Source: Candidatus Vecturithrix granuli
Lineage (GTDB): Bacteria; Moduliflexota; Moduliflexia; Moduliflexales; Moduliflexaceae
Reading direction: 5' to 3'
DNA length: 32,268 bases
Assembly: GCA_000739535.1 (NCBI GenBank)
Contig: DF820464.1
Coordinates: 878,174-910,441, forward strand
In this document: piece by piece, positions 17,838 through 29,004 of the stretch
Layout: each line of letters opens with the position of its first letter
How positions within the stretch are numbered: position 1 is the stretch's first letter
Notes under the pieces: generated by a model
What the model was told of the DNA's origin: nothing
Databases searched by the model: none
Seen by the model: the letters and a program-made list of their open reading frames with translations, nothing else
Program-made: the position numbers and the translations under genes

Positions 17838-18080
17838 ACGGTGTTATACTTTTTAATTCTTCCCTGGCAAATGGGATATCCTCTGTGCCGTAGTATTTTT
17901 CCAGGGAGAGCCACTTTTTTGTTGACAAGATTCTCAGCGTTGTTCTATTGAATTGCGTGATGACATTCATGAGGTAATAATTAGTCACGTTTTTGCTTGT
18001 GAATTGTTTCGGAAATTCGGAGAGGCGTTCGCAAAACACGAGATGGTCAGATGAGTACATTCGGTTTTCCCATTCACCCG

Positions 18081-18173
18081 ATGATGATAATTGTTCCGGC
18101 AGGCGCGTATTTTTACTATTTTTGGTATAAGGCCGGGGGTGGGACGGTGCTGCGCTCCTGGCAGGGAGGATAA
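18081..18173 (+). CDS. Aromatic leader peptide of the aro operon attenuator
   Basis: 30 codons starting ATG-ATG at 18081 (an in-frame ATG at 18051 would give 40). Residues 10-16 are YFYYFWY, seven aromatic residues in a row (codons 18108-18128). KAGGGTVLRSWQGG and a stop at 18171 follow. No strong ribosome-binding site is visible for either start. A strong intrinsic terminator (18201-18236) lies 27 bp after the stop, and aroA begins at 18296. A codon run specific for the end products followed by a terminator is the classic arrangement of ribosome-mediated attenuation (trp, phe and his leaders). Here all three aromatic amino acids are read at once, which suits a gene set making their common precursor chorismate. 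Inferred from sequence; no homologue known to me. Confidence 0.7.
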   Translation: MMIIVPAGAYFYYFWYKAGGGTVLRSWQGG

Positions 18174-18200
18174 CCTGAACCCCTCTTTGCCGCCTCTTCC

Positions 18201-18236
18201 AAAGCCCACTCTAAGAGATGTAGAGTGGGCTTTTTT
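18201..18236 (+). terminator. Attenuator terminator before aroA
   Basis: aaagcccactcta (18201-18213) pairs with tagagtgggcttt (18221-18233) around a 7-nt loop, followed by TTTTTTG. It is the best intrinsic terminator in the window. By hand, ggggtggg (18136-18143), just 3' of the aromatic codons, can pair with cccactct (18205-18212), eight pairs including two G-U, which would break the terminator. gccggg (18132-18137) can instead pair with cctggc (18157-18162), freeing it. These are the alternative structures an attenuator needs. Confidence 0.75.
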
Positions 18237-18295
18237 GTTTCAGGCAACACTGAAACGGCAAGAACAGGTGAAAAATTGAAAATATATTCATTACT

Positions 18296-19540
18296 ATGAA
18301 AAAATTTATTGCACCGACACAGATTAACGGAATTGTAGCGGCCCCGGCGTCCAAAAGCGATATGCTGCGGGCGGCGGCGGCCGCCTATTTAACAGGCAAG
18401 ACTTGTGAAATTGTGCATCCCTCGTTCTGTGATGACGCCAAAGCTGCGCTTGGCATCGTCAGCGCCCTGGGAACGCAGCTTGATCTTCGCTCTGACAACA
18501 TCCTGTTCAGTCCCGGAAATTTGAAGCCTGAACCGGTATTAGACTGCGGCGAATCGGGTTTGTGTATTCGTATGTTTCCCTCAATCGCCGCGCTGCGTCC
18601 TGAGACAATGACGTTAACCGGTCGTGGTTCCCTGATTTCACGGCCGCTCGATATGATTGTCCAGCCCTTACGAGAGCTTGGAGTTGTCTGCCAGACCAAT
18701 AACGGCTTTGCGCCGATCACGGTGACAGGCCCATTACAAGCGGGAAAGGCCGTTGTTGACGCTTCTGTGACTTCCCAGTTTCTGACAGGCTTGTTAATGG
18801 CTTTGCCGCTATGTCAGGGAACCTCAGAAATTATAGTGAAGAATTTGAAAAGTACTCCCTATATCGCCATGACCCTGCACTTGCTTGAGCAATTCGGAAT
18901 TCTGGTTGAACATGAGCAGTATGAACATTTTCTGATTCATGGGCCGCAACCGTATCACCCGCTCTCATATTCGGTTGAAGGCGACTGGTCAGGAGCTGCG
19001 TTTTTGCTTGTGGCCGGTGCCATTGCCGGAAACGTGAGCGTGACGAATCTCAAGCTCGATTCGCTGCAGGCCGACCGCGCCATCCTGGACGCGCTCGCTC
19101 GCTGCGGCGCAGATCTGACTCTGGAAGAATCGCGGGTCAGCGCCCATCAGGGTACTTTGTACGGTTTTGAGTTTGATGCGGTAGATTGTCCGGATCTGTT
19201 CCCGCCGCTTGTGGCTTTAGCGTGCGCTTGCAAAGGGAAAACGGTGATTTATGGAGCGCAGCGTCTCAAAGTCAAAGAAAGCGATCGCGGCATCGCCTTA
19301 TTGACCGAATTTCGCAAAATAGGCGCGAATATCGCCTTATATCCTGACCGAATGGAAATTAGCGGCTCAGAACTTGACGGGGGAAACGTGCATGCGTATA
19401 ATGATCACAGAATCGCGATGGCCTGTGCGATTGCCGCGTTGCGTTCCCGTAAGGGCGTAACAATTGAGGGCGCGGAATGTGTGGCAAAATCTTATCCGCA
19501 ATTTTATGAGGATCTGCAAAGTACGGCAGTATATACGTGA
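18296..19540 (+). CDS. aroA: 3-phosphoshikimate 1-carboxyvinyltransferase (EPSP synthase)
   Basis: 414 aa, slightly short for the family (about 425-440). It joins shikimate-3-phosphate and PEP to EPSP, the penultimate step to chorismate. Family landmarks: SKSDMLRAAAAA in place of the commoner SKSxxxRAL; CGESGLCIRMF, the CGESG.xxR variant of the GNAGTxxR loop; SQFLTGLLMALP; GDWSGAAFLLVAGA; DCPDLFPPLVALA; and RLKVKESDR. The divergent first loop and the Gly-Glu-Ser-Gly loop place it outside the classical enterobacterial type, which can affect glyphosate sensitivity, but catalytic residues look intact. No strong ribosome-binding site is visible. It follows the attenuator and starts the aromatic block. 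Confidence 0.93.
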   Translation: MKKFIAPTQINGIVAAPASKSDMLRAAAAAYLTGKTCEIVHPSFCDDAKAALGIVSALGTQLDLRSDNILFSPGNLKPEPVLDCGESGLCIRMFPSIAALRPETMTLTGRGSLISRPLDMIVQPLRELGVVCQTNNGFAPITVTGPLQAGKAVVDASVTSQFLTGLLMALPLCQGTSEIIVKNLKSTPYIAMTLHLLEQFGILVEHEQYEHFLIHGPQPYHPLSYSVEGDWSGAAFLLVAGAIAGNVSVTNLKLDSLQADRAILDALARCGADLTLEESRVSAHQGTLYGFEFDAVDCPDLFPPLVALACACKGKTVIYGAQRLKVKESDRGIALLTEFRKIGANIALYPDRMEISGSELDGGNVHAYNDHRIAMACAIAALRSRKGVTIEGAECVAKSYPQFYEDLQSTAVYT

Positions 19541-19564: not shown

Positions 19565-20236
19565 ATGATAGATACAGTAGAGGTCAAACGAATTGTCAGA
19601 GATGAGCTTTCAACCATAATTCATGAAGATCGTGAATTTTACGAGATTGTTCAGCACCTGGTCAGGGATCAATGGTTGGAAAGTTCAGAACGTCGCTTTA
19701 ATAAAATTCTCGACGAATTACGCCAGGATCGAGAAGAGCAAAGCAAAAAGTGGGAGGAACAGAACCAAAAGTGGGAAGAAAACCAGAAGATGCTGAATCA
19801 GATATTGCAAGAGATTCACAAAATGTCCCGCAAGCATGAAAGCTCAATTGGTGCGTTGGGCTCACGTTGGGGACTCCATACTGAGGAATCCTTTCGCAAT
19901 GCGTTGAAAAGTATCCTGGAAGATTCCTTTGATGTGCAGGTTGTTCATGTAAACGAATACGATGACAGCGGTGAAGTATTTGGACATCCCGATCAGGTCG
20001 AACTCGATGTGATCATCAAAAATGGCATGTTGATTGTCTGTGAAATTAAATCTTCAATGAGCCGCAGCGAAGTGTACAGTTTCGAGCACAAAATCGCATT
20101 CTATGAAAGAATGCATGACTGTCAGACCAGCAGAAAGATCATTATTTCACCGATGGTAGATAAATACGCACAGCGAGTTGCTGCCAAATTGGGATTCGAA
20201 GTGTATAGTTACGCAGAAGATGTTGAAACAATTTAA
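19565..20236 (+). CDS. Coiled-coil PD-(D/E)XK nuclease-like protein (DUF3782-like)
   Basis: 223 aa with an excellent ribosome-binding site (AAAGGAGGAAG), 24 bp after aroA. Residues 40-92 form a charged coiled coil with a WEEQNQKWEENQK repeat. The C-terminal half has SRWGLHTEESFRNAL, then ELDVIIKNGMLIVCEIKSS, where Asp148, Glu160 and Lys162 fit the D-x(n)-ExK core of the PD-(D/E)XK fold. Similar DUF3782-type proteins are common in filamentous cyanobacteria and other large genomes, usually without known function. Its position between aroA and aroC with short gaps implies co-transcription with aromatic biosynthesis. No functional link is known; it may simply be an inserted gene. Confidence 0.75.
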   Translation: MIDTVEVKRIVRDELSTIIHEDREFYEIVQHLVRDQWLESSERRFNKILDELRQDREEQSKKWEEQNQKWEENQKMLNQILQEIHKMSRKHESSIGALGSRWGLHTEESFRNALKSILEDSFDVQVVHVNEYDDSGEVFGHPDQVELDVIIKNGMLIVCEIKSSMSRSEVYSFEHKIAFYERMHDCQTSRKIIISPMVDKYAQRVAAKLGFEVYSYAEDVETI

Positions 20237-20256: not shown

Positions 20257-21267
20257 ATGAATTCCTATGGCAGACTATTTCGAGTCCATATTTTTGGCGA
20301 ATCTCACGGCAAAAGTGTGGGCATTTTACTTGACGGTGTACCGGCCGGCATTCCGCTTGCGGCTGAAGATTTTGCCGCGGATCTGGCGCGACGCAGACCG
20401 GGCGCAAAAGGCACAACGCTGCGACACGAGGATGATCTGGGGCTGCTTAAAAGCGGCGTCTTTCAGGACAAAACGACCGGCGCGCCTCTGTTGATTGGAT
20501 TTGACAATAAAGATACTGATTCTTCGGCTTACGATCTGCTTAAAGACCATCCGCGTCCGGGACATGCGGATTTCACTGCATTTCATAAATTCGGCGGGTT
20601 CAATGATTATCGCGGCAGCGGTCATTTTTCCGGCAGAATCACGCTTGGATTAGTGGCGGCTGGCGTGGTCGCCAAAAAAATCATTCAAAACATTCGGATT
20701 GAAGCTGGACTGGTAGAAGCCGGAGGAAGTGAGCGGATTGAGGAAAATGTGGAGCACGCCGTTGCAACTAAAAATTCCATCGGGGCGATTATTGTCTGTC
20801 AGGCGACAGGAGTGCCGGTTGGACTCGGAGAGCCTTTTTTTGATTCGGTCGAATCTCTGCTCAGCCATATTATCTTTGCGGTTCCGGGCATCCGCGGGAT
20901 CGAGTTCGGAGCCGGTTTCGCATCTGCGAAAATGAAAGGCTCTGAATGTAATGATCCGATTCTGGATGCGAGCGGCCGAACAGCAACTAACCATGCCGGG
21001 GGCGTGAACGGCGGCATCACTAACGGCAACCCGCTCGTTTTTCGCGTCGCCGTGAAACCGACCTCCAGCATCGGGCAGCCCCAGAGAACCATTAACTTAC
21101 ACAGCGGGGAACAGACCTCTCTGGTGGTTGAAGGCCGTCACGACGCCTGTTTTGCCTTGCGCTTGCCGGTCGTGATCGAAGCGGCAACAGCTATTGTATT
21201 GGCCGATCTGATGCTGCTGGAACAACAGGTTGCGAGAATAGGGAATAGAGCCATCGAAACTATTTAG
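20257..21267 (+). CDS. aroC: Chorismate synthase
   Basis: 336 aa, at the short end for the family (about 350-390). It eliminates phosphate from EPSP to give chorismate, using reduced FMN. Signatures: GRLFRVHIFGESHGKSVGILLDGVPAGIP at the N-terminus with catalytic His17, RRRPG, RPGHADF, DYRGSGHFSGRIT (flavin-binding region), NHAGGVNGGITNGNPLVFRVAVKPTSSI, and GRHDACFALRLPVVIEAATAIVLAD. The last block usually reads GRHDPCxxxRAVPVxEAM, so the C-terminal region is somewhat divergent. It is 20 bp downstream of the nuclease-like gene. Confidence 0.93.
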   Translation: MNSYGRLFRVHIFGESHGKSVGILLDGVPAGIPLAAEDFAADLARRRPGAKGTTLRHEDDLGLLKSGVFQDKTTGAPLLIGFDNKDTDSSAYDLLKDHPRPGHADFTAFHKFGGFNDYRGSGHFSGRITLGLVAAGVVAKKIIQNIRIEAGLVEAGGSERIEENVEHAVATKNSIGAIIVCQATGVPVGLGEPFFDSVESLLSHIIFAVPGIRGIEFGAGFASAKMKGSECNDPILDASGRTATNHAGGVNGGITNGNPLVFRVAVKPTSSIGQPQRTINLHSGEQTSLVVEGRHDACFALRLPVVIEAATAIVLADLMLLEQQVARIGNRAIETI

Positions 21268-21320
21268 CACGTAGTGCTTTAAGTATTGTAGAAAAATGGA
21301 CTCACCAGTCCCCTTTCTCC

Positions 21321-21416
21321 TACCGCGTAGCGGTTGTAGATCGCCTACGGCGAAGAAGAATTGAGGGCTTAATCCGAGTACTACAATGCTCTATCGCCTA
21401 CGGCGAAAAGGTGAAC
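21321..21416. repeat. Dispersed hairpin element (GTAGT/ACTAC family, extended copy)
   Basis: accgc-gta-gcggt hairpin, then tgtag (21335-21339) / ctaca (21381-21385) outer arms enclosing cgcc-tac-ggcg, aagaa and attgag-ggc-ttaat. A second cgcctacggcg follows at about 21404-21414. It has the same layout as 7257-7310 and 23813-23863. It lies in the 425-bp gap between aroC and pheA. Confidence 0.6.
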
Positions 21417-21549
21417 TAAATCGTAACAAAAAAATAAAGAACACGCCATACGGAACGCGGAATATCTGAGACATTATGCGAAATACTGTTGATATTGAAC
21501 ACGTTGGAACACTACAACGAATTTGGGAATCAAACGGATAAACGAAAGA

Positions 21550-21646
21550 AATTCGTTCCATGCTCAAATCTGCTGTATTCTTAGACTCGTTATATTCTTA
21601 AATTCGTTGTATTCTCAAATTCGTTGTATTCTCAAATTCGTTGTAG
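21550..21646. repeat. 17-bp tandem repeat, AATTCGTTGTATTCTCA units
   Basis: About 5.7 head-to-tail copies of a 17-bp unit (21550, 21567, 21584, 21601, 21618 and a partial at 21635). Units 21601 and 21618 are identical and the outer ones diverge. The array ends 47 bp before pheA. A similar pair, with the same aattcg.tgtagtgtt end, is directly upstream of the TIR gene (23932-23960). Confidence 0.75.
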
Positions 21647-21692
21647 TGTTTGACATCATACGCATGATGCCTCGGGTATTCTGCTTGAAAAC

Positions 21693-22775
21693 ATGGAGGA
21701 ACTGTATAAACTGCGATCGGAAATTGACCGGATTGATTTCGAATTGCTGAAATTATTGAAAACGCGCATGGAGACGGCGTTGAAAATTCGGAAGTTTAAA
21801 GCAGAAATTACCGATACGTCGCGTGAAGCCGAGGTGCTTAACCGGGTAAAGGCTTCTGCTCAGGCTCTTAGCCTGTTAACGCCTGAATTTGCCGAACAGA
21901 TCTTCTCTCAGATCATCGAAGCGAGCAAAACGCTCCAGGCGCAAGGGTATCGGCTGATCGGCTTTCAGGGCGAGCATGGCGCGTACAGCGAAGTCGCGGC
22001 GCGGGCGTATCACAGCGGGTTGGCCTATATCCCCTGCCGTGAATTTGCGGATGTGTTTGAAAGCGTGCAGCAAGGGTATCTGGATCTCGGCATCGTTCCG
22101 GTTGAAAATTCGCTGGGAGGATCAGTGACCCAGGTCAATGAGCTGCTGATTCAATATGATTTACATGTGATCGCTGAAATCAAAAATCCGATCCACCATT
22201 GTTTATTAGCTTTGCCAGGCACGGATCACCGCGATATTCGTGTGGTATTTTCTCACCCTCAGGCACTGACCCAATGCCGGAATTTTCTGCAAAGAAATCA
22301 TCTTGAGCCTCGTCCCTATTACGATACGGCCGGTGCAGCCCAAATGCTCAGCACCGAACGTCCTGATACGGCCGCAGCCTTAGCCAGTAAATTGTGTGCG
22401 GAACTGTATAATCTGGAAATTATCAAAGAAGGCGTGGAAGATCACGAGGCCAATGTCACCAGATTTCTGGTGTTAGATCGGCAGCCGCAACAAGAGATAG
22501 GCTCAAAATGTTCGATCATTTTTTGTATGTCTCGTGAAACTGCCACGCAATCCGGCAGTTTATACGGCATCTTAAAACTATTTGCTGACGCCAAAATCAA
22601 CCTGACACGGATTGAATCAATGCCGAATCGCAATGACCCTGGTAACTATTATTTCTTCCTCGATTTTGAAGGGAATGATACTGATGAAACCGTCAAGCGC
22701 GTGCTTGAAGGGGTAAAAAACAATACAGTGCTCTATAAATTTCTCGGGTGTTATAAGGAGGTTAGTTCCTCATGA
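21693..22775 (+). CDS. pheA: Bifunctional chorismate mutase / prephenate dehydratase
   Basis: 360 aa, standard for the three-domain form. Residues 1-85: AroQ chorismate mutase (LRSEIDRIDFELLKLLKTRMETALKIRKFK). About 88-265: prephenate dehydratase with GFQGEHGAYSE, VPVENSLGGSV, HPQAL and a TRF motif in NVTRFLVL. About 275-355: ACT regulatory domain with GSLYGILKLFADAKINLTRIESMP, where the usual ESRP of the phenylalanine site reads ESMP. It converts chorismate to phenylpyruvate and is probably inhibited by phenylalanine. Its stop overlaps tyrA by four bases. No clear ribosome-binding site; it is separated from aroC by 425 bp of repeats, so it may have its own promoter. Confidence 0.95.
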   Translation: MEELYKLRSEIDRIDFELLKLLKTRMETALKIRKFKAEITDTSREAEVLNRVKASAQALSLLTPEFAEQIFSQIIEASKTLQAQGYRLIGFQGEHGAYSEVAARAYHSGLAYIPCREFADVFESVQQGYLDLGIVPVENSLGGSVTQVNELLIQYDLHVIAEIKNPIHHCLLALPGTDHRDIRVVFSHPQALTQCRNFLQRNHLEPRPYYDTAGAAQMLSTERPDTAAALASKLCAELYNLEIIKEGVEDHEANVTRFLVLDRQPQQEIGSKCSIIFCMSRETATQSGSLYGILKLFADAKINLTRIESMPNRNDPGNYYFFLDFEGNDTDETVKRVLEGVKNNTVLYKFLGCYKEVSSS

Positions 22776-23572
22776 AAATAGCAATAATTGGCGCAGGCCA
22801 TGTAGGCGGGTGGTTTGCCAGAGAATTGATCAAAGATGGGCATGAGCTTGCCATCTTTGATCTGAATCCGCACAAAACCGCAGAATTTCAGGACAATTGT
22901 GTGCTAAAAGAATTGGCAGAACTCACCCAATTTGTCCCAGATTTACTTTTAAACGCTGTCAGCATTCAGCACACGGTGCAAGCCTTTGAGAAGTGCGTTG
23001 CCTATTTACCGGATCATTGCGTGCTCGTTGATGTCGCTTCCGTGAAAGGTGAAGTACCGCGATACTATCAGCAGGCAGGCTTCCGATATGCTTCCTTGCA
23101 CCCGATGTTTGGGCCGACCTTCGCCAATGTCAATGATTTACATGAAGAAAATGTGATTTTGATTACTGAATCCGACCCAAACATCAAAGAATTTTTCAGA
23201 ACCTTCTTTCGGCAGCGCGGGCTGAATATTTTTGAGTTTTCCTTCAAGAAACACGATCAGATGACGGCCTATTCGCTAAGCCTGCCTTTTGCGTCTACTC
23301 TGGTGTTTGCAGCTTGCATGGATAATACGACCGTTCCTGGTACGACCTTTAAACGCCATCTTGCTATTGCCAAAGGCCTGTTGTCTGAAGACGATCACTT
23401 ACTGGCGGAAATTTTGTTTAATGCCTATTCCCTGGAACAGCTTGAAAAAGTGACAGCGCGCCTCGAATTCCTGAAACACGTCATTCGCGCCCGGGATTAT
23501 GAAGAAGCCCAGCGTTTTTTCAATCGTTTGAGAGAAAATATCACCTCAAGCCCTGACGCTCCCGGTGCGTGA
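22772..23572 (+). CDS. tyrA: Prephenate dehydrogenase
   Basis: 266 aa, the compact dehydrogenase without a fused mutase or ACT domain. The Rossmann motif is IIGAGHVGGWFA (5-16) with an acidic residue (Asp30) after the second strand favouring NAD. VDVASVKGE and HPMFGPTFA are the active-site blocks typical of TyrA. It makes 4-hydroxyphenylpyruvate for tyrosine. A ribosome-binding site (AAGGAGG) lies inside the end of pheA and the ATGA overlap couples their translation, so the Phe and Tyr branches are made together. No terminator is seen after it. Confidence 0.92.
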   Translation: MKIAIIGAGHVGGWFARELIKDGHELAIFDLNPHKTAEFQDNCVLKELAELTQFVPDLLLNAVSIQHTVQAFEKCVAYLPDHCVLVDVASVKGEVPRYYQQAGFRYASLHPMFGPTFANVNDLHEENVILITESDPNIKEFFRTFFRQRGLNIFEFSFKKHDQMTAYSLSLPFASTLVFAACMDNTTVPGTTFKRHLAIAKGLLSEDDHLLAEILFNAYSLEQLEKVTARLEFLKHVIRARDYEEAQRFFNRLRENITSSPDAPGA

Positions 23573-23968: not shown

Positions 23969-26311
23969 ATGGATACACCTGAAATCTTTATTTCATACAC
24001 CTGGCAAGGCGAAAGTCTCAAGATTACCGAAGCGTTAGACACTTTTTTGCAGGCGCGGGGCATCACTGTTGTCCGTGATAACCGGGATATTGGCTACAAA
24101 GGATTGATTAAGGAGTACATGCAACGGCTCGGCCAGGGCAAGTATGTCGTCGTCGTACTGAGCGACCAATACTTCACATCCAAAGACTGTATGTTCGAGT
24201 TGCTGCAACTGTCGCGGCAGGAAGGCTTTTACGACCGTATTTTCCCGATCACTGTCGAAGGTATCAGTATTTATGAAGCGGAAGATTTGCTCAGGTACGC
24301 CCGCTACTGGGATGAAAAAATCGCCCATCTACAGCAAGAGATTAAGAACACTGCCAATATCACCAACCTCCAGGGCATTACCGACGATCTCAACCTCTAT
24401 GTTGAAATCCGCCAGAATATCGCCAAATTAATAGACTTTCTGCGCAACATCAACACCCATCCCCTCAAAGGCTCGAATTTCGATCCATTATTGAAGGCCA
24501 TTCAGTCGAAAATCGCGCAAGACCAGGCCCTGTCCGCCGCGCCTGAAGAAGTCAGCCGGGCGACGGAAGCCACAACACCGGCACAGAGCAAGACAGTTGT
24601 GGTGATGTCAGGCGAAGGCCGGCGCTGGGCGTGTTTGATCGGCGCGAATGAGTATGATGAGGCAACGCTGCCGTCCCTGGCATATCCCGAAGCCAATGTG
24701 GACGCCTTCATCCGTGTTCTGGAGGATCAACAGCTTGGCGACTTCGATCAGGTGGTGGTGTTAAAAGGCAAAACCCACACGGAGATCATCCGGGAAATCA
24801 AGAGTTTGACCGGGCAGTTAACGCTCGCCGACCTGCTGCTGGTTTATTTTACGGGCTATGTCCTGCTGGACAAAGAGGAAACCGGCAAGCTCTATCTGCT
24901 CGGCGCAAGCAGTGACCCGGCGGATTTGCCCGGTTCCGCGATTGAATTAGGACGGATCAAAACCTTTCTGGACAAATCGGAAGCGGTACAAAAAATGCTG
25001 ATTCTGGACTGTCAGTATGGCGGCCAGACGCCGCCGTATCATCTCACGGATCCTGACCTGGTGCAAACCCAACTGGGGTGTGCACGCCAGGGCGCATATC
25101 TCATCAGCAACGCGGTGCAAGGAGCTGCCGGCAGCGCGGAGCCATCCGCCAGTTCTCTGACGCAATATCTGCTGGAAGGGCTGACGACCGGCAAGGCAGA
25201 CCTGGATCAGAACGGCAAGGTGACGGTGGATGAATGGTACACCTACGCGCAGCGCCAGATGGTTGACCGGAGCCTGCCCGAACCCTTGAAATGGGATCCC
25301 GGCACGGCCGGCAACTGGGTTGTGGCGCGCACTCCCGGAACGTCGGCGCAGACAGCGGCTATGCTGCCGGCCAGTCTGAAACGGAATTATAAATACATCA
25401 GCGACATGTTCCGCGATGGCAGCGTCATCCCCTTTTTAGGGTCGGAGATGGTGCTTCCCGCGGACCCCGCAGCCGTCGCCGAGGCCAGCGTCAACGAGCC
25501 ACCGCTGGAACGGGAGTTAGCGCAAAAAATGGCGGAGCAAGCGGAATTGCTGCAAACAGGCCAGTGTCATCCGCTGACTGTCATGTCTCAATACTACCAG
25601 ATGCAGGTCGTCGGCGCGCGTCCCCTCTTTTACAAACAATTGAAAAAGCTCTATCCCCAACACGTCCGCCCCGGTGCAATTCACCGCTTTCTGGCGCAGC
25701 AGGATCAACCGATGGTGGTGATCACCGCCAGTTATGATACGCTCCTGGAGCAGGTGTTCCGGGAACACGGCAAACCCTACGCGGTCGTGACCCATATCGC
25801 CTATGCCGAAGACGAAGGCAATCTCGGCAAAGTGGCGGTGTCATATTCGGATCGTCCTGACAACGCGGAAATCGGCCTGTCCGATGAATTGAGCATTGAT
25901 CTGGAAAAATGGTGGGTCTTTTACAAAATTCAGGGCACCTTCGACTTGTTTGTCAAAGGGTTGGCCGGCAAAGAGGAACTTGATTCGATTGTGATTTCCG
26001 AAGAGGATTACGTGGCCTGGCTCAGCCGCCTGAGCGACCAGCACCGGACGATTCCGACGCTGTTTCAGCGGGTGTTTCAACAACGCCTGTTCCTCTTTTT
26101 AGGCTACCGCATGTGCGACTGGAATTTCCGCACCCTCGTCCACATCTTGCGCAAAGACGAGAAAATCCGTAAAGTCAACGCCTACGCCGTGCGCCAAAAC
26201 GCCACGGATTTCGAGCGATCTTATTGGAAGAGCAAAAACGTGCAAATCCTTGATTTTGAAACTTCGGAGTTTATCCAGGGATTGGCAGAGGAAATGAATA
26301 TTCAGCTTTAA
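23969..26311 (+). CDS. TIR protein with degenerate caspase-like and SIR2-like domains
   Basis: 780 aa. Residues 4-160: TIR domain (IFISYTWQ, VVVVLSDQYFTSKDCMFELLQL) with the NADase-type glutamate Glu77 retained. About 217-455: caspase-like (C14) fold, WACLIGANEY, LLVYFTGYV and MLILDCQYGG. The usual His of YFSGHG is Tyr297 and the catalytic Cys of DCCxSG is Gln349, so it should not be a protease. DLDQNGKVTVDEWYTY (411-426) is the EF-hand-like insert common in bacterial caspases. About 475-775: SIR2-like domain, GSVIPFLGSEM, ITASYDTLLE, FYKIQGTFDL, FLGYRMCDWNFRTL. The NAD-binding Asn (TTNYD) is Ser588 and the catalytic His (KxHG) is Gln655. Only the TIR looks enzymatic; the other two domains may be sensors or scaffolds. 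No strong ribosome-binding site. The next gene is a STAND ATPase on the same strand. Confidence 0.82.
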   Translation: MDTPEIFISYTWQGESLKITEALDTFLQARGITVVRDNRDIGYKGLIKEYMQRLGQGKYVVVVLSDQYFTSKDCMFELLQLSRQEGFYDRIFPITVEGISIYEAEDLLRYARYWDEKIAHLQQEIKNTANITNLQGITDDLNLYVEIRQNIAKLIDFLRNINTHPLKGSNFDPLLKAIQSKIAQDQALSAAPEEVSRATEATTPAQSKTVVVMSGEGRRWACLIGANEYDEATLPSLAYPEANVDAFIRVLEDQQLGDFDQVVVLKGKTHTEIIREIKSLTGQLTLADLLLVYFTGYVLLDKEETGKLYLLGASSDPADLPGSAIELGRIKTFLDKSEAVQKMLILDCQYGGQTPPYHLTDPDLVQTQLGCARQGAYLISNAVQGAAGSAEPSASSLTQYLLEGLTTGKADLDQNGKVTVDEWYTYAQRQMVDRSLPEPLKWDPGTAGNWVVARTPGTSAQTAAMLPASLKRNYKYISDMFRDGSVIPFLGSEMVLPADPAAVAEASVNEPPLERELAQKMAEQAELLQTGQCHPLTVMSQYYQMQVVGARPLFYKQLKKLYPQHVRPGAIHRFLAQQDQPMVVITASYDTLLEQVFREHGKPYAVVTHIAYAEDEGNLGKVAVSYSDRPDNAEIGLSDELSIDLEKWWVFYKIQGTFDLFVKGLAGKEELDSIVISEEDYVAWLSRLSDQHRTIPTLFQRVFQQRLFLFLGYRMCDWNFRTLVHILRKDEKIRKVNAYAVRQNATDFERSYWKSKNVQILDFETSEFIQGLAEEMNIQL

Positions 26312-26370: not shown

Positions 26371-26640
26371 GTCCCGGAGGGATGGTTGATAATAGCCCAC
26401 CGTTTTAACGGTGGGGAACCGATGGGTAATCGGCGCGGAGTCCCGGAGGGACGGTTGATAATAACCCACCGTTTTAACGGTGAGGGAAGATCAGCTCATC
26501 AAATATCGTTGATGTCCCGTAGGAACAATTGAAAACGGGTGGGTAATGTTCAGTCGTCCCTAACGGGACTCATAGGGTCATTGCCGTCTGACATTCCCAC
26601 CGTTGAAACGGTGGGCTATTATCGAATGTCCCTCCGGGAC
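26371..26640. repeat. Cluster of GTCCCGGAGGGAC / CCCACCGTT-AACGGTGGG repeats
   Basis: Two direct copies, 26371-26416 and 26440-26485, read gtcccggaggga.ggttgataata.cccaccgttttaacggtg. An inverted copy is at 26596-26640, and a decayed piece lies near 26514-26570. The copies facing each other give the block a MITE-like symmetry. It occupies most of the 383-bp gap between the TIR gene and the STAND gene; no ORF is convincing in it. Confidence 0.8.
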
Positions 26641-26650
26641 GCGGAGGCGA

Positions 26651-26694: not shown

Positions 26695-29004
26695 ATGCAG
26701 ATACAATCACCTTACAAAGGGCTTGCGCCGTATGATGTGGCGGATAAGGACAATTTCTTCGGACGCAAGCGCGAGACGCAGATTCTGCTCGGCAAAATCT
26801 TTGCCAACAACGTGACCCTCCTGTTCGCCGGCACCGGCGTGGGCAAAAGCTCGCTGCTGCGCGCCGCAATTTTCCCGGCTTTAACGGAACAACACGCGCT
26901 GGATGTGGTCTATTATGCGGACTGGGTGCGCGAGCCGCTGGAAGGACTCAAAACTACGATTCAGCAAACGCTCAGCGCCAACGGCAAAATCACGGGACGC
27001 GAACTCAAAAAAAACGACGAACTCCTGTCCTTTTTGACCACCTGTACCGCGTACGCCAGTGAACCCTTGATCCTGATGCTCGACCAGTTCGAAGAACTCT
27101 TCCAATATCATGCCCGTTCCGGCCGGCTGCGTCCGTTTGTGGAGCAGGTGGCGCGGGTCGTGAATACGCCGGACCTGCCGGTGAGCCTGGTTTTGTCCAT
27201 GCGCGAGGATTTTCTGGCCGAATTGAATATTTTCAAAGGCCGCATTCCCGGCTTATTCGACAACTACTACCGGCTGGAAGAGTTGCAAATCGAGCAGGCG
27301 CGCGAGGCGATTGAAAAGCCGCTTAAAAAGGTCGGTTTTCGCTATGAAGACGGCCTGGTTGAACAATTGTTGAACGACTTAGCGGCGCGGGAACAGTCGC
27401 GTCACGTGGAGGCCACCGCGGAAGGTGGACTCCACGTAACCGTCATGGAGTCTGTCGAGCCGCCCTATTTGCAAATCGTCTGCAATGAACTGTGGCGCGC
27501 GGAAAAGGACAATCCCCAAAAAGTCATCACTATGGCTCGCTATAACGCCTTAGGCCGCACAACGCAGATTGTCCGCAAGCACTTCGAGCAGGCCATGGCT
27601 CACTTTTCCTTGCGCGAACAGTCTTTAGCATTCGAGATGTTCCGTTATCTCGTGACCGAGCGGGGCACGAAAATGGCGTACCGGGCTGAGGATTTAGCCA
27701 GCGAACAACTGCTGGGCGTCCCTGTCAGCGAGTTGCAGCCGATTCTGGCGTATTTAGCGAGTAAAGAGGTACGCGTCCTGCGGGCCGATCAACGGCTGGA
27801 TCAGACTTGGTACGAACTCTATCACGATGTCTTTGCCCAGATTATCCGCGCCTGGAGCGAACAATTTCAAGCGGATGAAGATCGCCGCATTTACCGGCAG
27901 ATCAGCAGCGCGACCCGCAAATGGGCCAACGCTGGCCGCGACGAGACCTTGCTGCTGCGCGGGGCCGCGCTGTTGGAAAGCAAAGACTGGCAAAAGCGCA
28001 ACCGCATCGAGACGCTTTTGCCTGAAGAGCAAACCTTTCTCAAGCAAAGTTTGACCCAATATTACCGCGGCGTCTGGCTGCGCCGGGGGATTGTGGCCAT
28101 CATTGCGGTGTTTGCCGTCATCTCCGCTATCGCCGGCTTGTACGCCAATGCGCAGCGCAAGGAAGCCGAACATCAGTCGCGGCTCGGCCGCATTCGTTCG
28201 CTTATCGCTTACGCGTATAAGGATAATGTCGAGGAGCAACGCGAACGGGCGGCGTTGCTGGCGCGGCATGCGTACTTGCTGAACCAGCAGTATCACGGCA
28301 ATATGCAGCCGGAAATTCAGGTGGCGTTAGAGACGATTTTTGCCACGAAATTTATTACGAAGGAACCGTACGATCCTGATGTGGTGAAACAGGTCTGTCA
28401 GAAGGTGCATTTTAAGATCGCTTTAATAGACGAAGAATGGCGGCAATTTACCAACAATGTGCTGCCTTATAAACCGGCCTGCCCGGAATTGCAGCAGATT
28501 TATCCATTGCAGTTGCGCCGCGAGCCGATGACGGCGCGTGATTACATGGCGTTGTCGCTAAATATGGCGGACGCGGGCGGCTGGGGAATCCTGGCGCATG
28601 ATGTCGAGAACCAGTTTAAAGGCCGGGACGACGTAATTTTCGACAAGGCCACCGGGTTACTATGGGAGAAAGCGGGTTCGCCTAATGCATTAAACTACGC
28701 TGACGCCGAAGGCTATTGCGCCAATCTGACATTGACCGGGCATAAAGACTGGCGGCTGCCGACGATTGAGGAATTACTGTCGCTCATAGAACCAGAAAAA
28801 CAAGCCAATGGTTTCTATCTCGATCCCATTTTTGTTCTTCGAGAAGGAGTGAAGTACCCCTGGTATTGGAGCGCCGATATTCATCTAATAAAAGGCGAAG
28901 GTTCGGCGGAGTCGGCGTGGGGCGTCCTTTTCTACGACGGCATCGTGGACTGGGACGGCGTCCACCTCGGCGTCGACGTGCGTTGTGTGCGTGTCGGACA
29001 ATGA
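26695..29004 (+). CDS. nSTAND1 ATPase, membrane-anchored, with C-terminal DUF1566 lectin-like domain
   Basis: 769 aa. Residues 4-30: the SPYKGLAPYDVADKDNFFGR entry typical of nSTAND1. Walker A FAGTGVGKSS (Lys51), Walker B LILMLDQFEELF (Asp130). A helical region follows to about 455, one transmembrane helix at 464-484 (GIVAIIAVFAVISAIAGLYA), and a long linker. A DUF1566 domain covers about 640-769 (VIFDKATGLLWEKAGS, YADAEGYCANLTLTGHKDWRLPTIEELLSLI, YPWYWSAD, VRCVRVG). STAND ATPases oligomerise on ligand binding and trigger effectors; DUF1566 is a C-type-lectin-like ligand binder and a frequent DGR target. Codons 743-761 carry a DGR-like mutation signature (see 28921-28998). The likely partner or effector is the TIR protein upstream. 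No ribosome-binding site is visible. Confidence 0.88.
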   Translation: MQIQSPYKGLAPYDVADKDNFFGRKRETQILLGKIFANNVTLLFAGTGVGKSSLLRAAIFPALTEQHALDVVYYADWVREPLEGLKTTIQQTLSANGKITGRELKKNDELLSFLTTCTAYASEPLILMLDQFEELFQYHARSGRLRPFVEQVARVVNTPDLPVSLVLSMREDFLAELNIFKGRIPGLFDNYYRLEELQIEQAREAIEKPLKKVGFRYEDGLVEQLLNDLAAREQSRHVEATAEGGLHVTVMESVEPPYLQIVCNELWRAEKDNPQKVITMARYNALGRTTQIVRKHFEQAMAHFSLREQSLAFEMFRYLVTERGTKMAYRAEDLASEQLLGVPVSELQPILAYLASKEVRVLRADQRLDQTWYELYHDVFAQIIRAWSEQFQADEDRRIYRQISSATRKWANAGRDETLLLRGAALLESKDWQKRNRIETLLPEEQTFLKQSLTQYYRGVWLRRGIVAIIAVFAVISAIAGLYANAQRKEAEHQSRLGRIRSLIAYAYKDNVEEQRERAALLARHAYLLNQQYHGNMQPEIQVALETIFATKFITKEPYDPDVVKQVCQKVHFKIALIDEEWRQFTNNVLPYKPACPELQQIYPLQLRREPMTARDYMALSLNMADAGGWGILAHDVENQFKGRDDVIFDKATGLLWEKAGSPNALNYADAEGYCANLTLTGHKDWRLPTIEELLSLIEPEKQANGFYLDPIFVLREGVKYPWYWSADIHLIKGEGSAESAWGVLFYDGIVDWDGVHLGVDVRCVRVGQ
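28921..28998 (+). other. Putative DGR variable region (VR) at the 3' end of the STAND gene
   Basis: Sixteen of the 19 codons for residues 743-761 end in C with differing first and second bases: ggc gtc ttc tac gac ggc atc gac gac ggc gtc cac ctc ggc gtc gac. DGRs mutate template adenines, and AAC codons become NNC. DUF1566 proteins normally read roughly FNNGNVNWNNKNNN-YVRCVR here; this one reads FYDGIVDWDGVHLGVDVRCVR, with substitutions at the Asn positions. The A-free gtgcgttgtgtgcgtgtc at its end would be the invariant IMH-like boundary. Confidence 0.65.

Follow-up and report, generated by a model that had tools for sequence, protein, structure and literature searches.

A predicted ribosome-mediated attenuator with a mixed Tyr/Phe/Trp codon run upstream of aroA, and its two paralogous cassettes in the same genome

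The window analysed here, a stretch of 32,268 nucleotides, carries genes for aromatic amino acid biosynthesis on its forward strand, preceded by a short leader region. NCBIfam cut-offs were passed by aroA (TIGR01356, 346 bits against a cut-off of 287) and aroC, and also by the DAHP synthase and the TrpB-like family encoded at two other loci described below. The region upstream of aroA is arranged as a T-rich TTGACA box, an ORF containing the codon run, a G-rich stretch (GGGGGTGGGACG) directly 3' of the run, and a terminator. The features are as follows.

17915-17950, forward strand: promoter-like element, consisting of a T-tract, TTGACA (17922-17927) and a poor -10 region, delimited by the three-locus alignment
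18051-18173, forward strand: leader peptide ORF (MSTFGFPIHPMMIIVPAGAYFYYFWYKAGGGTVLRSWQGG, then a stop codon), from the ORF list, with its start set by alignment with the aroF and trpB leaders
18108-18128, forward strand: putative control codons Y-F-Y-Y-F-W-Y (TAT TTT TAC TAT TTT TGG TAT), a run absent from shuffled windows
18116-18142, forward strand: predicted protecting hairpin of the ribosome-free RNA (minimum free energy fold), 18116-18126 with 18132-18142, sequestering segment 2
18136-18143, forward strand: segment 2, the 5' strand of the antiterminator (GGGGTGGG, within CCGGGGGTGGGACG, which is identical in the aroF copy), pairing with 18205-18212
18160-18191, forward strand: segments 3 and 4, a hairpin (GGCAGGGAGG/CCTCTTTGCC) enclosed by the antiterminator
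18201-18240, forward strand: intrinsic terminator (AAAGCCCACTCTA, 7 nt, TAGAGTGGGCTTT, then TTTGTTT), whose 5' arm is segment 5 of the antiterminator
18296-19540, forward strand: aroA (EPSP synthase; TIGR01356), the gene proposed to be regulated
20257-21267, forward strand: aroC (chorismate synthase), by domain match, a probable operon member
21693-22775, forward strand: pheA (chorismate mutase-prephenate dehydratase), by domain match, of uncertain operon membership, with a 425-nt gap on its 5' side
22772-23572, forward strand: tyrA (prephenate dehydrogenase-like), overlapping the end of pheA, below the NCBIfam cut-offs, with prephenate dehydrogenases as best matches

The first-pass annotation of this DNA had read the genes as an aroA-aroC-pheA-tyrA block. 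The gene assignments are right by domain, but the block is interrupted by a DUF3782/PD-(D/E)XK nuclease gene (19565-20236) between aroA and aroC, and the 425 nt before pheA contain a 17-bp tandem repeat (AAATTCGTTGTATTCTT) in 5.7 copies (21549-21645). Because of the intervening gene and the repeat-bearing gap, co-transcription of pheA and tyrA with aroA is only a candidate arrangement. No second leader before pheA was found in 21268-21692. Directly 3' of the aromatic block lie two defence-like genes, encoding a TIR and SIR2-like protein with weak similarity to ThsA (23969-26311) and then an nSTAND1-Lcl_C protein (26695-29004). Between them are two matches to the Acido-Lenti-1 RNA (RF01687) above the gathering score, at 26439-26484 on the reverse strand and 26596-26641 on the forward strand.

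The short ORF with seven consecutive Tyr, Phe and Trp codons, from which the first-pass annotation had started, is indeed present. A set of 100 first-order Markov versions of the window contained no run of at least seven F/Y/W codons, and runs of at least six were seen at 0.02 per window. The leader had originally been started at 18081. We rejected this start in favour of the ATG at 18051, because the start codons and first residues of three paralogous leaders (MSTFGFP, MNVFVPH and MSKSVPQ) align there, which gives the aroA leader a length of 40 codons and 40 amino acids. The sequence TTTTTT(A/G)TTGACAA stands in front of all three leaders, 82-129 nt 5' of the leader start; the putative promoter of the aroA leader matches the -10 consensus weakly and was absent from a consensus promoter scan. 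No Rfam leader family (Trp, Phe or others) reached its gathering score in the window or the paralogous loci, where chance matches only were seen (E up to 10), and the T-box riboswitch likewise had no Rfam match in the same regions.

Downstream of the codon run, the leader RNA can form mutually exclusive helices. The competing helix proposed earlier, 18136-18143 with 18205-18212, pairs as claimed, with eight base pairs of which two are G-U. The terminator also proved to be as first described, a 13-bp stem (18201-18213 with 18221-18233) followed by a T-run, with aroA on its 3' side. A protecting helix had been suggested between 18132-18137 and 18157-18162; these stretches can pair, but folding gives instead the 18116-18126/18132-18142 hairpin listed above, in which segment 2 pairs with the codon run itself. 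In all three paralogous copies the terminator stem is paired, with two double-sided changes, and intrinsic terminators with stems of 13-15 bp and T-runs stand between the leader and the first structural gene, as expected of attenuators. The antiterminator pairs show no two-sided covariation among the three sequences; an antiterminator G-U of the aroA copy is A-U in the trpB copy. The hairpin of segments 3 and 4 keeps its pairing in the aroF copy with one exception, and the trpB copy has a different hairpin there. When tested against shuffles, the complementarity of segment 2 gave p = 0.06-0.15 in the aroA and trpB copies, which is not rare for such G-rich sequence, and p = 0.014-0.017 in the aroF copy.

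The two paralogous cassettes were found in the source genome (8.38 Mb) as diverged copies of the aroA leader region. The second copy, detected by a DNA search of the same genome, is 73% identical over 18084-18236 and has aroE on one side and the DAHP synthase gene aroF on the other; a gene overlapping and 3' of aroF is presumably aroB. Its leader (MNVFVPHIEDMMIIPVRYYFYFWYWSGGGTTLSSWQGG) carries the codon run YYFYFWYW, and the aligned aroA and aroF leader peptides share 58% amino acid identity. A covariance model of these two copies retrieved the third (E = 2.3e-8) in front of a TrpB-like gene of the trpB2 type, which is followed by a phenylacetate-CoA ligase-like gene. The leader of the third copy (MSKSVPQISSIVSQFVAQGWWWCVCEWDGSTLVSRRRR) has a run that reads WWW, with Trp codons only. 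Thus, each of the three short leader ORFs holds a run of product codons (YFYYFWY before aroA, YYFYFWYW before aroF and WWW before trpB2), and the gene behind it belongs to the synthesis of the amino acids so encoded, aroA and aroF being assigned by NCBIfam and the third being TrpB2-like. The terminator core that the aroF copy shares with the aroA copy, CCCACTC-N3-18-GAGTGGG, occurs at exactly three sites in the 8.38 Mb, one per putative attenuator. With the terminator excluded, the aroF and trpB copies align better than 500 of 500 dinucleotide shuffles; the alignment of the aroA and trpB copies is marginal, 11 of 500 shuffles being as good. In all three copies the antiterminator strand starts 9-10 nt past the Trp codon or codons of the run. 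The differences between YFYYFWY and YYFYFWYW are aromatic-for-aromatic changes, by which the particular residue is altered and the class is kept. Since the aroA and aroF runs changed residue and not class, and the trpB2 copy has Trp only, we read these codons as the signal. On sequence grounds, the control codons therefore appear to have followed their targets, being mixed F/Y/W before aroA and aroF and WWW before trpB2.

A covariance-model search of 385 genomes yielded no convincing further copy, and the next-best matches that were inspected (in G332, G267 and others) were terminators or repeats without an aromatic leader. The first-pass annotation had named conservation of the aromatic run in relatives as a check. 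This was not borne out in the available same-family genome (G001), of which the aroF protein is 83% identical to that of the source genome: no leader was found before its aroF and no F/Y/W run around its aro cluster. At the aroF locus of the source genome (L003, 1697-1726), a promoter-like site, TTGACA-18-TACTAT, lies between the terminator and aroF and resembles the sequence directly 5' of aroF in G001. Part of the aroF expression probably bypasses the attenuator by way of this candidate promoter.

Another of the suggested checks was to look for two exclusive states by folding. The equilibrium fold of the full leader proved uninformative, as the terminator wins whenever the whole RNA is folded. 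Because of this, the switch would depend on kinetics, like known attenuators. We replaced the equilibrium fold by folds that lack the 3' arm of the terminator. The A site of the ribosome was set on each leader codon in turn, and the RNA 3' of the ribosome was folded up to an end within the loop of the terminator, which represents a transcript whose 3' arm is still to be made. With these ribosome positions, the antiterminator is freed at the aromatic codons, although the full-length equilibrium knows the terminator state only. For aroA, 0.26 antiterminator pairs are expected without a ribosome and about 1 with the ribosome on the codons immediately 5' of the run; the expectation rises to 5-8 for most positions between the first Tyr and the Trp, both included, and is 0 once the Lys codon is reached. 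In the trpB copy, pairing peaks at 7.0 with the ribosome on either of the first two Trp codons, then falls to 0. The aroF copy behaves less sharply: pairing is high up to F22, including positions upstream of the run, and falls across W-Y-W, and 6.2 pairs are expected without a ribosome, so that the effect of the protecting hairpin of the aroA copy is not reproduced. In each of the three copies, stalling ceases to be permissive where the run ends; for aroA and trpB, it also becomes permissive only at the run or shortly 5' of it. The E. coli trpL control, folded in the same way, retained its pairing throughout the tandem Trp codons and lost it at the stop codon. Computationally, the cassettes thus have an antiterminator that is exclusive with the terminator and is exposed when a ribosome stalls on the control codons, with the reservation that pairing in aroF is also high 5' of the run.

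The best explanation for these features, and one we hold with considerable confidence, is that a ribosome-mediated transcription attenuator lies upstream of aroA, where it would sense charged aromatic tRNAs and control the aroA operon. RNA polymerase would start about 95 nt 5' of the leader, with a ribosome trailing on the 40-codon leader. When Tyr- or Phe-tRNA is scarce (and, more weakly, Trp-tRNA), the ribosome would stop in YFYYFWY and leave segment 2 free to pair with the 5' arm of the terminator, the hairpin of segments 3 and 4 standing between, so that polymerase could read on into aroA. When the amino acids are plentiful, the ribosome would cover segments 2 and 3 on its way to the stop codon, the terminator would form and transcription would end. 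If no ribosome occupies the aroA leader, segment 2 would be hidden in the hairpin with the codon run, and termination would follow as well. The leaders, their paralogy, the codon runs, the terminators and the mutually exclusive helices are established by sequence and computation; transcription and translation of the leaders, stalling of the ribosome and a response to every one of the three amino acids are what we infer from them. The attenuation by ribosome stalling on aromatic codons that the first-pass annotation had envisaged is supported by the paralogous cassettes with target-matched codons, by the stall-position folds and by the shared terminator unique to these loci.

The sensing of all three aromatic amino acids, also proposed there, is firm as regards Tyr and Phe codons, less so as regards Trp. 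It is possible, though on the whole not what we expect, that the aro leaders sense Phe and Tyr only, and that their Trp codon is a leftover of a Trp-specific ancestor, comparable to the leader of trpB2 or to those before trpE in relatives, with little regulatory effect. Six of the seven codons in the aroA run are Tyr or Phe, and the Trp codon is close to the end of the run, where antiterminator pairing drops. Moreover, trpE (two domains), trpC and trpA were not detectable in either the source genome or G001, whereas the same searches found the gene in 14 of 14 control genomes; for the Trp branch, only the trpB2-type gene was found in the source genome, itself behind the putative Trp attenuator. 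Because trpE, trpC and trpA are not detectable there, a Trp shortage could not be relieved through aroA. Their absence removes the obvious reason for aroA to answer to Trp, and makes Trp sensing puzzling. On the other hand, a ribosome on W25 still leaves 5.6-7.8 of the eight antiterminator pairs, varying with the assumed edge of the ribosome, FWY is identical in both aro copies while the adjacent codons have changed, and the genome is 94% complete, so that the trp genes could be missing from the assembly. The simplest reading may be that the family lost de novo Trp synthesis and that the source organism uses TrpB2 on indole, in which case the Trp codon of the aro leaders might either signal shortage in general or survive from a Trp-leader ancestor.

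Trp leaders do exist in the same order, where two genomes (G002 and G003) have the leader AWRWWWRQ and a terminator before trpE. In L062 (1226-1403) and the matching stretch of L063, from these two genomes, the leader MNFLRAVSPNEFLIQAWRWWWRQCLPVVW is accompanied by an 11-bp competing helix and a 15-bp terminator. Judging from these leaders, Trp-codon attenuation appears to be in use in the phylum. They resemble the cassettes of the source genome in having a codon run (WRWWW), a terminator, and the competing helix just past the codons. They differ from the aro leaders in reading Trp only, and their terminator and peptide sequences differ from those of the cassette.

Two further alternatives to attenuation by charged aromatic tRNAs fare worse. 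In the first, the leader is translated, the terminator just closes a transcript unit that is upstream or antisense, aroA has its own promoter, and the aromatic run is a coincidence of the membrane-segment kind. Membrane segments do yield aromatic-rich peptides: the sole match of a contig scan with the leader-peptide alignment (L021), which we judged to be due to chance, is a membrane segment of a Bacteroidota protein. A bypass promoter is also likely for aroF. Such a coincidence is improbable, as the genome has three cassettes, all of them preceding aromatic genes, with codons that match the target and a common terminator sequence found nowhere else in the genome, and as no promoter-like site was found between the terminator and aroA except one that overlaps the start codon. 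Still more improbable is an arrest by the nascent leader peptide in response to a free aromatic compound, in the manner of TnaC with free Trp, and not to tRNA shortage: residues flanking the run are conserved between the aroA and aroF leaders (MMII, GGGT, SWQGG), but they largely coincide with nucleotides needed for segments 2 and 3, the trpB peptide differs widely and yet keeps the codon run, segment 2 and terminator, and stalling on a free product would switch biosynthesis on when it is not needed.

The attenuator proposed for aroA shares its principle with well-known systems. The trp, phe and his leaders use codon runs of the regulated product, and the enterobacterial ilvL (ilvGMEDA) and thrL leaders each read several amino acids, made by pathways that have enzymes in common. 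The latter two are like the aro leaders in reading more than one amino acid, but have branched-chain or Thr/Ile codons and serve a different pathway. The E. coli trpL and pheL leaders resemble the cassettes in their codon run and in an antiterminator exclusive with an intrinsic terminator, trpL showing the same stall geometry in the folding test; unlike the aroA and aroF leaders, they read a single amino acid and precede terminal-branch operons, not genes of the common shikimate pathway. The ilv and thr operons are listed among attenuated operons (PMC1183508). The nearest described system to the aro leaders is the AroR leader before aroF of Corynebacterium glutamicum, which has Phe-Tyr-Phe and responds to limitation of Phe, not of Tyr (Neshat et al. 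2014, as summarised in PMC11802643); a putative leader with FYF residues before this gene is also given in PMC4046766. AroR resembles the aroA and aroF leaders in its mixed aromatic codons, its position before a DAHP synthase operon and its attenuation by ribosome stalling, and differs in having three codons and no Trp, in being confined to one locus and in belonging to a different phylum, with no sequence relation shown. In Acholeplasma, the uORFC-13-1 motif before aroF, which combines a uORF containing Phe codon(s) with a terminator, is a predicted attenuator (PMC8632094). Unlike the leaders found here, it is from another lineage and is described there with at least one Phe codon and no Tyr/Trp run. 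The first-pass annotation had regarded a leader reading all three aromatic amino acids as unfamiliar among described attenuators, and in agreement with this we found no leader with Phe, Tyr and Trp together in the literature searched, the coverage of which is incomplete.

The evidence supports a wider scope than a single attenuator before aroA, namely a family of three attenuators in one genome, the control codons of which match their targets. We lean, with some reserve, towards the view that one cassette (promoter, leader, antiterminator and terminator) was copied to three places and its codons rewritten for each target, which would amount to an RNA-only regulon of three members that needs no regulator protein and sums shortages across the aromatic tRNAs. 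The trpB2 cassette would then be a natural re-coding experiment, in which the scaffold is the same and the codons and the target differ, and the comparison suggests that such regulators may spread by copying of whole cassettes followed by codon change. By its anatomy, this is leader-peptide attenuation in a sparsely sampled phylum (four genomes), outside the groups in which the literature searched describes such attenuators, namely Proteobacteria, Actinobacteria and some Firmicutes (PMC2965389, PMC1262725). An attenuator typically monitors a single end product; a run of all three aromatic codons in front of shared shikimate genes would offer a simple means to regulate the common pathway by the sum of its products.
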